From Anaerolineae bacterium (GTDB lineage: Bacteria; Chloroflexota; Anaerolineae; Aggregatilineales; Ch27): a DNA stretch of 64,000 nucleotides. Location of the stretch: positions 62,001-126,000 of the forward strand of contig JABLXG010000015.1 of NCBI GenBank assembly GCA_013178165.1, written 5' to 3'. The first letter of the stretch is position 1; the number at the start of each line of letters is the position of its first letter. Below are positions 12,266 through 22,558 of the stretch, one piece after another. Below the pieces are notes generated by a model that searched no databases, was not told where the DNA came from, and saw only the letters and a list, made by a program, of their open reading frames with translations. Made by a program: the position numbers and the translations under genes.

Positions 12266-12293
12266 CGCCACTCTCCCGCCCGTCGATCAAAAA

Positions 12294-12323
12294 ACGCCCC
12301 GCCCATGACCTGCGGCGGGGCGT
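12294..12323 (-). terminator. intrinsic terminator of the FHA gene
   Basis: ACGCCCCGCC (12294-12303) pairs perfectly with GGCGGGGCGT (12314-12323). Six A's at 12289-12294 become a T-run on the minus strand, so it ends the FHA transcript; it may also stop the convergent roadblock gene. Confidence 0.8.
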
Positions 12324-17915: not shown

Positions 17916-18221
17916 ATGGACGTAGAACTGCTACACTTTGACGGCTGCCCCTCCTGGCAGTCAGCCCTGGAAGAACTACGCGCCGCGCTGGCCGAGCTGG
18001 CGATCCAGGCGGAAGTGAGGCTGGTGCGCGTAGAAACTGACGAACAGGCTCAGACGACCCGTTTTGTGGGATCGCCCACGATTCGGGTCAACGGCGCTGA
18101 TTTGTTCCCGGTGGGGCACACCCAGTACGCGCTGGGGTGCCGCGTTTATGCCACGCCGGGAGGACTACGCGGCTGGCCGGATCGGGCCATGATCGCGGCG
18201 GCGCTGCGCGAGATTCGCTAG
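17916..18221 (+). CDS. thioredoxin-fold small protein with one active-site cysteine
   Basis: The 101-residue protein starts VELLHFDGCPSW, a thioredoxin-like strand and active-site loop, and later has VGSPTIRVNG with the cis-proline. It resembles small thioredoxin-like proteins often found near mercury or arsenic resistance genes. Only the first Cys of the CxxC is present (CPSW); a second Cys occurs at LGCRVY. A monothiol role or a metal-binding role is possible (inference). GAGGAGG lies upstream of the ATG. It is 43 bases after the GH1 gene and may share its transcript. Confidence 0.7.
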   Translation: MDVELLHFDGCPSWQSALEELRAALAELAIQAEVRLVRVETDEQAQTTRFVGSPTIRVNGADLFPVGHTQYALGCRVYATPGGLRGWPDRAMIAAALREIR

Positions 18222-18283
18222 TTGCCAGTGATCCGAGCCGGCGCCTGCCCCCTGAATTTCAACTGCTCTACCCTGGCAATCTA

Positions 18284-18292
18284 TGCTATAGT
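18284..18292 (+). promoter_or_regulatory. extended -10 for the FBP aldolase/phosphatase leader
   Basis: TGCTATAGT (18284-18292) lies about 136 bases upstream of the ATG. A transcript from about 18299 would carry the terminator-like leader described at 18345-18398. Confidence 0.5.
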
Positions 18293-18344
18293 GAGATAGA
18301 GCAGTAACGTAGCGGTAGAGAACATCATAGATAGCTGGTAGCTG

Positions 18345-18398
18345 CCGAAGGCGTCGTTGCATCTGCAGGGGGCCTTCGGTTTTTGTTTTCCCGGCAGC
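18345..18398 (+). promoter_or_regulatory. terminator-bearing leader, possible attenuator
   Basis: CCGAAGGC (18345-18352) pairs with GCCTTCGG (18372-18379), followed by TTTTTGTTTT (18380-18389): a good intrinsic terminator, but placed between the promoter and the FBP aldolase/phosphatase gene. An overlapping alternative pairs GCTGCCG (18341-18347) with CGGCAGC (18392-18398), beyond the T-run. Two exclusive folds of this sort suggest transcription attenuation, or a short RNA ending here. Confidence 0.5.
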
Positions 18399-18428
18399 AG
18401 GCATTAGCCGGGGAGAAGGAGACAGGCA

Positions 18429-19529
18429 ATGGACCGCATCACGTTGAGTGTGATCAAGGCTGATGTTGGCGGTTACGTGGGGCACTCGGCCATGCACAGC
18501 GAATTGATCGCCGAGGCCACCCGGCAGCTTGAGGGGGCGCGGCGCGACGGGCTGATCGTCGATTTTCACGTGACCGCCTGCGGCGATGACCTGGAGCTGA
18601 TTATGACTCACAGCCGGGGCGTCGATGATGAGACCATCCATCACAGGGCATGGGATGTATTTGAGGCGTGTACAGCGGTGGCCCGACGTTTGAAACTATA
18701 TGGTGCGGGGCAGGACCTGCTGGCAGACGCTTTTTCCGGCAACGTGAAAGGCATGGGGCCTGGCGTAGCCGAGATGACGTTTGAGGAGCGCCCATCCGAG
18801 CCGGTGATCATCTTCATGGCGGATAAAACCTCCGCCGGAGCGTGGAATCTGCCACTATGCAAGATGTTTGCCGATCCCTTCAACACCGCCGGATTGGTTA
18901 TCGCGCCGCCGCTGCATGATGGCTTCCGTTTTGAAGTGCATGATGTCAAGCAGAACAAGCGAATCTTCTTTGACACACCGGCGGAATATTACGATCTGTT
19001 GGTGTTCATTGGTGCGGCGGGTCGCTATATGGTCAAGGCAGTCTACGGCCGGAACGGCGAGATCGGCGCGGTGTCTTCCACCCAGCGGCTGGCGCTGATC
19101 GCCGGCAAATACGTTGGCAAAGATGACCCGGTGTGCATCGTTCGCGGGCAGGGTCAGTTCCCGGCAATCGGCGAAATTCTGGAACCGTTTACGCTGCCGC
19201 ATATCGTGGAAGGCTGGATGCGTGGCTCGCACTATGGCCCACTGATGCCCGTCCCGCTGCGCAATGCTACACCGAGTCGCTTTGATGGGCCGCCGCGTGT
19301 GGTAGCGCTGGGGTTCCAGCTGGCGGAAGGCCGCCTGATCGGGCCGCGGGATATGTTCGATGATCCTGGCTTCGATGAGGCACGGCGGGCATGTAATGTC
19401 CTGGCTGACCAGTTGCGCCAGCACGGGCCGTTTGAGCCGCACCGACTGCCGATGGACGAGATGGAGTATACGACGCTGCCGCAGGTGCGGGAGAAGTTGC
19501 AGGCGCGGTGGGAGGAATTGCCCGCCTGA
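18429..19529 (+). CDS. fbp: fructose-1,6-bisphosphate aldolase/phosphatase (bifunctional, archaeal type)
   Basis: The 366-residue protein is the bifunctional gluconeogenic enzyme that condenses triose phosphates to fructose bisphosphate and then removes the 1-phosphate. It begins with TLSVIKADVGGYVGHSAMH and contains the DDLELIMTHSRG, GAGQDLLADAFSGNVKGMGPG, FMADKTSAGAWNLPLCKMFADPFNTAGLVI and MRGSHYGPLMPV segments that make up the two active sites and Mg ligands. Length matches the family (about 365-400). The family is best known from archaea and deep-branching thermophilic bacteria and is a sign of gluconeogenic carbon flow. GGAGAAGGAGAC precedes the ATG. It has a long leader with a terminator-like hairpin. 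Confidence 0.95.
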   Translation: MDRITLSVIKADVGGYVGHSAMHSELIAEATRQLEGARRDGLIVDFHVTACGDDLELIMTHSRGVDDETIHHRAWDVFEACTAVARRLKLYGAGQDLLADAFSGNVKGMGPGVAEMTFEERPSEPVIIFMADKTSAGAWNLPLCKMFADPFNTAGLVIAPPLHDGFRFEVHDVKQNKRIFFDTPAEYYDLLVFIGAAGRYMVKAVYGRNGEIGAVSSTQRLALIAGKYVGKDDPVCIVRGQGQFPAIGEILEPFTLPHIVEGWMRGSHYGPLMPVPLRNATPSRFDGPPRVVALGFQLAEGRLIGPRDMFDDPGFDEARRACNVLADQLRQHGPFEPHRLPMDEMEYTTLPQVREKLQARWEELPA

Positions 19530-20435: not shown

Positions 20436-20747
20436 CTAGCGTGTCTCAACAACCATACGGATGGCGGTACGCTCCTGCCCGTCGATAGAGGTCTCGGTAA
20501 AGTACGGCACAAAGACCACGTCGATGCCGTCTTCAGCCAGATACCCGCGGGCGATGGCCATGGCTTTGACGGCCTGATTGACCGCCCCGGCGCCGATGGC
20601 CTGCACCTCAGCGCGGCTATGCTCCCGGATCACCCCGGCGATGGCGCCGGCGACCGCTGTCGAACGCGAACGGGCGGAGACTTTGATTACGTCAACCTGC
20701 GAATGTTCCATGGGAGGGGCGGACGAGTCTGATGCAGGGGTTTGCAT
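20436..20747 (-). CDS. spoVS: SpoVS-family protein
   Basis: The 103-residue protein has a 17-residue variable start and then the conserved SpoVS core: IKVSARSRSTAVAGAIAG, VQAIGAGAVNQAVKAMAIARGYL, GIDVVFVPYFTE and ERTAIRMVV. SpoVS is a small Alba-like protein needed for late sporulation in Bacillus and present in many non-sporulating bacteria, where its role is unclear; nucleic-acid binding is suggested by its fold. AAGGAAG lies at a fitting distance before the ATG. It is divergent from dnaA. Confidence 0.93.
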   Translation of the reverse strand: MQTPASDSSAPPMEHSQVDVIKVSARSRSTAVAGAIAGVIREHSRAEVQAIGAGAVNQAVKAMAIARGYLAEDGIDVVFVPYFTETSIDGQERTAIRMVVETR

Positions 20748-21199: not shown

Positions 21200-22558
21200 A
21201 TGAGCAAAGCGACCATGACCGCCCAGGACGCCTGGCAGGCCACCCTGGGGCAGCTTGAACTACAGCTCAACCGGGCGACATTTGAGACCTGGGTCAAAGG
21301 CGCCCGGTTGCTGGCCTATGAGGACGGCTCGTTCATCATCAGCGTCCGCAATGCGTATGTCAAATCGTGGCTGGAAAAGCGGCTCTACAGCTCGATCCGC
21401 CGCACGCTGGCCGATCTGTTTGGGCGCTCGGTTGAGGTGCGCTTTGTGGTCTACGACCCGCTGGAAGAGCCGGTCGATCTGGGGCCGCTGTGGCCCGAAG
21501 ACGAGCCGGAGGTGGGCGCCGCCGCCGGCGAACAGCCCTACGAAACCAACCTCAACCCGCGCTATGTCTTCGAATCCTTTGTCGTCGGCAGCAGCAACCA
21601 GCTGGCCCACGCTGCGGCGATGGCCGTGGCCGATCATCCCGGCAGCGCCTACAACCCGCTGTTCATCTACGGCGATGTCGGGCTGGGCAAGACCCACCTG
21701 CTGCACGCCATTGGCAACGCCTGCCGTGCGCGTGGGTTGCGCGCCCTCTACACCTCCTCCGAACAGTTCACCAACGAACTGATCGATTCCATCCGCGCCC
21801 AGAACACCGCCGCCTTCCGCAACCGCTACCGCATGGTGGATGTCCTGCTGGTGGACGACATCCAGTTCATTGCTGGTAAGGACAGCACGCAGGAGGAGTT
21901 CTTCCACACCTTCAACGCCCTGCACAGCGCCAATAGCCAGATCGTGCTGGCCAGCGATCGCCGCCCGCGAGCGATGGCCACACTGGAAGAACGGCTGCGT
22001 TCTCGCTTCGAATGGGGCCTGATCGTCGACATTCAGCCACCCGATCTGGAGATGCGCATCGCTATCCTCAACGACAAGGCCGAACAGCAGGGCGTTCACC
22101 TGCCGGAGGCGCTGGCCGAGCTGATCGCCAACCAGGTGCGGGGCAACATCCGCGAGCTGGAAGGCGTGCTGACCCAGATTCTGGCTCAGGCGCGCCTGGC
22201 GCATGTCCCGCTTTCCGATGAACTGGCCCGCCGTGTCCTGCGCGAGTTCCGCGCCCCGCGCCGCGTCCATACCGTTGACACAGTGCTGGAGGTGACCGCG
22301 GCCTTTCACAACCTGACGGTGGAGGACCTGATCGGCCCTCGCCGCACCAAGAAGATCGCCATCGCCCGCCAGCAGGCCATGTACCTGGCGCGGGAAGCCA
22401 CGGAAGCCTCCCTGCCACAGATCGGGGCGATCATGGGCGGGCGCGATCACACCACCGTCATGCACGGCTGCGCCAAGATCGCCGAACTCCTGGAATCGGA
22501 TGAGGAGATGCGGCAGGAGATCAAGCAGCTTCGCCTGCGTTTATTCGAGGGCGACTGA
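21200..22558 (+). CDS. dnaA: chromosomal replication initiator DnaA
   Basis: The 452-residue protein has all DnaA domains. Domain I (about 10-85) has LNRATFETWVKGA, and domain II is short. AAA+ domain III has Walker A GDVGLGKTH at 158-166, Walker B LLVDDIQF with Asp219/Asp220, and the sensor segment RLRSRFEWGLIVDI. Domain IV has the DNA-binding signature around ARQQAMYLAREATEASLPQIGAIMGGRDHTTVMHGCAKI. It binds ATP and DnaA boxes to open oriC. The start has AGGCAGGGGG upstream. There is no dnaN, recF or gyrB next to it, unlike the classical arrangement. Confidence 0.98.
   Translation: MSKATMTAQDAWQATLGQLELQLNRATFETWVKGARLLAYEDGSFIISVRNAYVKSWLEKRLYSSIRRTLADLFGRSVEVRFVVYDPLEEPVDLGPLWPEDEPEVGAAAGEQPYETNLNPRYVFESFVVGSSNQLAHAAAMAVADHPGSAYNPLFIYGDVGLGKTHLLHAIGNACRARGLRALYTSSEQFTNELIDSIRAQNTAAFRNRYRMVDVLLVDDIQFIAGKDSTQEEFFHTFNALHSANSQIVLASDRRPRAMATLEERLRSRFEWGLIVDIQPPDLEMRIAILNDKAEQQGVHLPEALAELIANQVRGNIRELEGVLTQILAQARLAHVPLSDELARRVLREFRAPRRVHTVDTVLEVTAAFHNLTVEDLIGPRRTKKIAIARQQAMYLAREATEASLPQIGAIMGGRDHTTVMHGCAKIAELLESDEEMRQEIKQLRLRLFEGD

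Follow-up and report, generated by a model that had tools for sequence, protein, structure and literature searches.

A hairpin leader before an fbp gene of an Anaerolineae bacterium belongs to a conserved, attenuator-like RNA family

Introduction

Why should a terminator hairpin stand between the predicted promoter of a gene and its ribosome site? The question is raised by the leader of fbp in a stretch of 64,000 nucleotides from an Anaerolineae bacterium (contig JABLXG010000015.1); below, "the window" means this whole stretch. A preliminary description, made from the letters alone, had noted a perfect 8-bp stem followed by a T-run at this place. It read the layout as that of an attenuator or riboswitch controlling a gluconeogenic gene, or else as the end of a small RNA. 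The features needed in what follows are these:

18282-18292, plus strand: extended -10 element TATG-C-TATAGT, predicted from the sequence; -10-like hexamers are enriched in leaders of the family
18307-18392, plus strand: whole conserved RNA element, a covariance model match of 70.2 bits and the sole copy found in the window and its genome
18313-18318, plus strand: strand 2, the 5' half of P1 (CGGUAG), paired in 95.9% of 293 cells in 49 relatives, 17 of them doubly changed
18319-18341, plus strand: P1 loop of 23 nt, family consensus GAAAACA..AUA..UC with conserved A, C, T and A positions; likely the sensing part
18342-18347, plus strand: strand 3, the 3' half of P1 (CUGCCG), whose CCG at 18345-18347 also begins the terminator stem
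18345-18352, plus strand: 5' arm of the terminator, CCGAAGGC, paired in 96.2% of 343 cells, 50 doubly changed
18372-18379, plus strand: 3' arm of the terminator, GCCUUCGG (strand 4), placed by stem covariation and sequence
18380-18389, plus strand: T-run TTTTTGTTTT, directly 3' of the stem, read from the sequence
18392-18398, plus strand: CGGCAGC, the partner first proposed for strand 3, kept in 3 of 50 copies and not a conserved part of the family
18429-19529, plus strand: fbp, an archaeal-type FBP aldolase/phosphatase (FBPase_3; PF01950, E = 1e-179)

Results

A terminator in the fbp leader

The hairpin is present as first described: a perfect stem of 8 bp (CCGAAGGC/GCCTTCGG, 18345-18352 with 18372-18379), closing a loop of 19 nt and placed between the extended -10 (18282-18292) and the ribosome site of fbp. 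The stem is rich in G+C and runs directly into the T-run, which is the anatomy of an intrinsic terminator. When the 207-base intergenic region was shuffled 20000 times with its dinucleotides kept, a perfect 8-bp stem followed by at least 7 T in 10 bases arose in only 3 of the shuffles. By the same rule the 64-kb window contains two sites on its two strands, the fbp leader and 12285-12322 (minus strand). Compared with shuffles, the folding z-score is -4.1 for 18298-18428 and -3.5 for the hairpin alone. A consensus terminator scan of the locus, which accepts loops of 3-8 only, called no terminator; it missed this hairpin because the loop has 19 bases.

From the position of the extended -10, the transcript would be expected to start near 18299. 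No -35 is recognisable upstream of the -10, and a consensus promoter scan of the locus called no promoter. Among the related leaders described below, the best -10-like hexamer upstream of each copy has a mean score of 5.31 against 4.47 in shuffles (sd 0.08, n = 49), and its distance from the element varies.

An inverted repeat (CTGCTCTA...TAGAGCAG, 18263-18270 and 18297-18304) lies on both sides of the -10 of the fbp leader, and CTCTACC at this repeat could also pair with GGTAGAG of strand 2. The repeat is possibly an operator, or a relic of the strand 1 that is discussed further on.

The element recurs before other genes

Before any model was built, two homologous leaders came up when the 207-base gap was compared by BLAST with 151 genomes of the order, one upstream of an M23 peptidase gene (L084) and one, on the minus strand, upstream of a kelch-repeat gene (L085). 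Together with the fbp leader they have in common AGCGG(T/C)AG, a loop, TAGCTGCCGAA(A/G)G, a second loop, a complementary arm, T's and a ribosome site. Most other rows from this gap were coding or chance, and the BLAST matches to GCTGCCGAAGGC were mostly coding.

A covariance model built from three sequences (R1) had 27 matches in 22 genomes at E <= 0.1 when all 154 genomes of the order were searched. Most of these have the full layout, while at least two (L228, L225) lack it or have a degenerate 5' half. A second model (R2), built from 24 of the R1 matches, gave at least 59 rows in at least 36 genomes of the order and further rows in a class draw of 396. In a phylum draw of 400 genomes it gave at least 6 at E <= 0.01, the window's own genome being the sole strong one. 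A deeper search of 14 genomes at E <= 0.5 found up to 6 copies per genome, and one in the genome of the window.

From these searches 72 rows were tabulated, and the 50 with at least 35 bits were used. The family thus defined has at least 50 copies of at least 35 bits in at least 31 genomes (at least 27 of 154 in the order of the window, at least 4 elsewhere in the class); these counts are lower bounds, with up to 11 or 29 candidates scored per genome and 150 in the deep search of 14 genomes. Of the 50 copies, 21 lie inside an open frame of at least 150 codons, compared with 83% of random places; the comparison is blurred by the frequent lack of a stop between leader and gene.

R2 rows below about 32 bits are mixed, as Rfam identifies one of them (L275) as a c-di-GMP-I-GGC riboswitch and another (L316), under its gathering score, as a T-box. 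Both were picked up, at 25-32 bits, because their terminator half is similar; they show where the noise level of R2 lies, and also that known leaders in this range are within the reach of Rfam.

Two pattern searches were set aside. The pattern GTAGAGAACN{5,30}CTGCCG, run in 396 class genomes, was too strict and mostly hit coding DNA, as judged from the matched letters. A close variant run in viral contigs (74 stretches) also gave mostly coding matches, and the expected terminator did not follow those read by eye.

Two stems compete for one strand

The preliminary description had proposed that GCTGCCG (18341-18347) pairs with CGGCAGC (18392-18398) beyond the T-run and so disrupts the terminator. 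This stem is present in the window, but it is kept in just 3 of the 50 copies, and we reject it as the antiterminator. The conserved partner sits upstream: CGGTAG (18313-18318) pairs with CTGCCG (18342-18347) to form P1, which overlaps the terminator arm by CCG. Of the two stems that had been expected to be conserved in relatives, the terminator is kept and the proposed alternative is not.

In a MAFFT alignment of 49 rows, from which L253 was excluded as it aligned out of register, P1 is paired in 95.9% of 293 cells, with double changes in 4 of its 6 pairs (17 cells), and the terminator in 96.2% of 343 cells, with double changes in 5 of 7 pairs (50 cells); these percentages lean towards the structure, since the models that collected the sequences hold three inner P1 pairs and the terminator. 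Neither count of doubly changed cells was reached by any of 500 shuffles, the alignments being not fitted to structure, the shuffles ignoring relatedness and the related sequences not being independent. When the stems are slid as a control, pairing drops to 10-68% for P1 and 29-56% for the terminator. Unaided, RNAalifold recovers the terminator.

One column of the shared strand is informative for both stems. Column 69 is C in 41 of the 49 rows, U in 7 (hdrC leaders) and G in 1. All 7 rows with U have A as the terminator partner, and as the P1 partner 5 of them have A and 2 have G; this P1 pair (columns 32-69) is not among the pairs modelled in R1 or R2. If both pairings matter, a change from C to U should be followed by both partners, as it is here. 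The series is confined to one orthologous group of one genus and therefore represents one or two events.

The leader thus has a conserved alternative stem that excludes the terminator, as a transcription attenuator does, and the attenuator-like layout first suggested is borne out by a conserved family with compensatory changes in both stems. There are conserved bases outside the stems as well, and the P1 loop is 22-24 nt long in 42 of 46 copies. Across 45 copies P1 alone has a folding energy of about -4 to -13 kcal/mol and the terminator stretch one of about -8 to -23, and P1 is the weaker in all but L253.

Genes behind the element

An ORF of at least 70 residues starts within 300 nt after the element in 47 of 50 copies (the ORFs were picked by script, and some starts may be wrong); in the copy L264 the downstream ORF is not clear in the stretch examined. 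Pfam searches covered 40 of these 47 ORFs and fbp of the window. HdrC-like 4Fe-4S proteins follow 7 copies, six by Fer4 matches that we read as HdrC-like and one (L257) by eye. Secreted PAF-AH/PETase-like hydrolases follow 5, four by Pfam and one (L306) by eye. Other products include two of beta-lactamase fold, two further alpha/beta hydrolases (L250, L256), two kelch proteins, M23, C39 with LysM, papain-like and caspase-like proteins, a nucleoside hydrolase, an alcohol dehydrogenase, an acetoacetate decarboxylase-like protein and a cupin, among others. By a crude test, 22 downstream products have an N-terminal hydrophobic stretch. No common pathway stands out among the genes covered by Pfam.

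Two leaders, L253 and L310 (30.4 bits), precede a small CxxC protein, judged for L310 by eye from the first bases; the L253 protein has a weak, below-cutoff match to Anti-TRAP.

The link to fbp is not specific. In an R2 scan of 81 fbp sources the sole match was the window's own (70.2 bits), and 0 of the 80 other loci, taken from titled genome contigs and some with little or no upstream DNA, carry the element. As the family also precedes many unrelated genes, the tie to gluconeogenesis drawn in the preliminary description does not hold.

The gene itself is absent from all 60 other relatives examined in the same genus, family and order, which indicates that it was probably gained horizontally in the lineage of the window. 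In a class draw of 120 genomes, 30 have the gene, the window's own among them, and its closest titled relatives are from Anaerolineae, Desulfobacteria and others. Just downstream of fbp are a SpoVS gene (20436-20747, minus strand) and an ORF that looks dnaA-like by eye from its translation (21200-22558), and a replication origin may be near.

Discussion

How the leader may work

The element is conserved, it holds two overlapping stems with compensatory change, it has the anatomy of a terminator and it is positioned before genes. We consider it probable that the fbp leader belongs to a lineage-specific, uncatalogued family of cis-acting transcription attenuators, terminated by default, in which a ligand or a protein holds the antiterminator.

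RNA polymerase would start some 10-30 bases before strand 2. On emerging, strand 3 could pair with strand 2 to form P1, the antiterminator; once strand 4 has emerged, strand 3 could join it instead, giving an intrinsic terminator before the gene. A ligand or protein bound to the conserved loop of near-constant length would hold P1 and leave the gene ON. The default state is most likely OFF, since the terminator is the more stable fold; this default, and the presence and nature of a signal, are what we infer from the design.

What the signal might be can be stated only tentatively. One proposal, short of an even chance, is a new riboswitch class of one class-level lineage, in which a general signalling metabolite, bound by the P1 loop of 22-24 nt, turns on a scattered regulon: secreted hydrolases, HdrC-like redox proteins and, once gained horizontally, the FBP aldolase/phosphatase. 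A regulon without a single pathway is unusual for a metabolite riboswitch. Such a mixed regulon would suit a protein-controlled antiterminator of the BglG/LicT or ANTAR-like type, with the regulator on the P1 loop, and so would the geometry, a hairpin sharing a strand with the terminator. Such a device would be one form of the attenuator, so that our confidence in the two overlaps, and we hold it to be somewhat unlikely: none of 14 carrier genomes has a match to the BglG-type RNA-binding domain (CAT_RBD), with the control positive in 4 of 14 known genomes, and ANTAR is present in 4 of 14 carriers and absent from the genome of the window. A regulator of another kind acting on the P1 loop is possible.

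A further layer, compatible with the attenuator, would make it a three-way device of the trp type, where a strand 1 near the transcript start pairs with strand 2 and favours termination. In a free search of the 50 copies (bases -20 to +2 against strand 2) the mean best stem score is 13.99, compared with 10.48 (sd 0.31) for shuffled sequences and 9.13 for a control stretch, which is suggestive of such pairing in many copies; CCTTTG with CAAAGG in L289 is an example. However, the gain over swapped upstream stretches is small (13.07, sd 0.29, max 14.1), a fixed-column count of this pairing (P0) is not above shuffles (65.3%, 81 of 500), and strand 1 is missing between the -10 and strand 2 in the window's copy. 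No consistent ATG or GTG was found upstream of strand 2 in the 50 copies, which makes a translated leader peptide unlikely. We regard a three-way device of this type as less likely than not.

Two readings would take the switch away from the gene. The element could be a small RNA of about 90 bases, as the preliminary description had allowed, with the downstream genes as bystanders. It would have its own -10 and terminator, the genes behind it are diverse, and in 31 of the 50 copies no chosen start codon lies within 30 nt of the element (an ORF starts within this span in the other 19). However, P1 and the terminator exclude each other and each is conserved, the position is kept before like genes (HdrC-like proteins, PAF-AH-like hydrolases), and in several copies the T-run leads directly into the ribosome site. 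All this makes a small RNA unlikely. More improbable still is a plain terminator of the small upstream ORF (17916-18221) with no regulatory role. The hairpin does lie in a gap between two co-directional genes, but it begins 123 bases past the stop codon, with the -10 and the conserved 5' half in between; this 5' half has compensatory changes, and the same element precedes other genes in other genomes.

The attenuator family is an orphan regulatory RNA; its two-state design is clear, and the alignment at hand offers a starting point for tracing its signal. That one switch stands before fbp, secreted enzymes and HdrC-like proteins suggests that many genes of these poorly studied bacteria answer to a single signal, and the fbp leader hints at a newly gained gene placed behind a native switch.

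Comparison with known systems

The preliminary description had recognised no known riboswitch class, in agreement with the Rfam 15 covariance models, none of which matches the element, either in the window or in the other loci searched. In the literature on riboswitches, attenuators and antiterminators of Chloroflexi, Chloroflexota and Anaerolineae and on an FBP aldolase phosphatase riboswitch, judged mainly from listings and including PMC2864571 and few subscription papers, the element is not named. In kind the device is an attenuator leader; the RNA family itself is found nowhere in Rfam 15 or in the literature searched.

In a trp-type attenuator strands 2:3 and 3:4 are alternatives, alongside 1:2, and a leader peptide is translated. 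The 2:3 and 3:4 alternatives, possibly with 1:2, are found in this family too, while a leader peptide is not seen. With the RAT antiterminators of BglG/LicT the family has in common that one strand serves both the antiterminator hairpin and the terminator; CAT_RBD is missing from the 14 carriers, however, and the loop and length differ from those of RAT. The c-di-GMP-I-GGC riboswitch and the T-box of the same phylum (L275, L316) have similar terminators, and Rfam names those two but not the family.

Fluoride and preQ1-I type riboswitches are of the short intrinsic-terminator type, where the 3' strand of a small hairpin overlaps the 5' arm of the terminator. While the family differs from them in having no sequence match in Rfam 15 and a regulon of unrelated genes, its small aptamer-like hairpin also overlaps the 5' arm of the terminator by its 3' strand.
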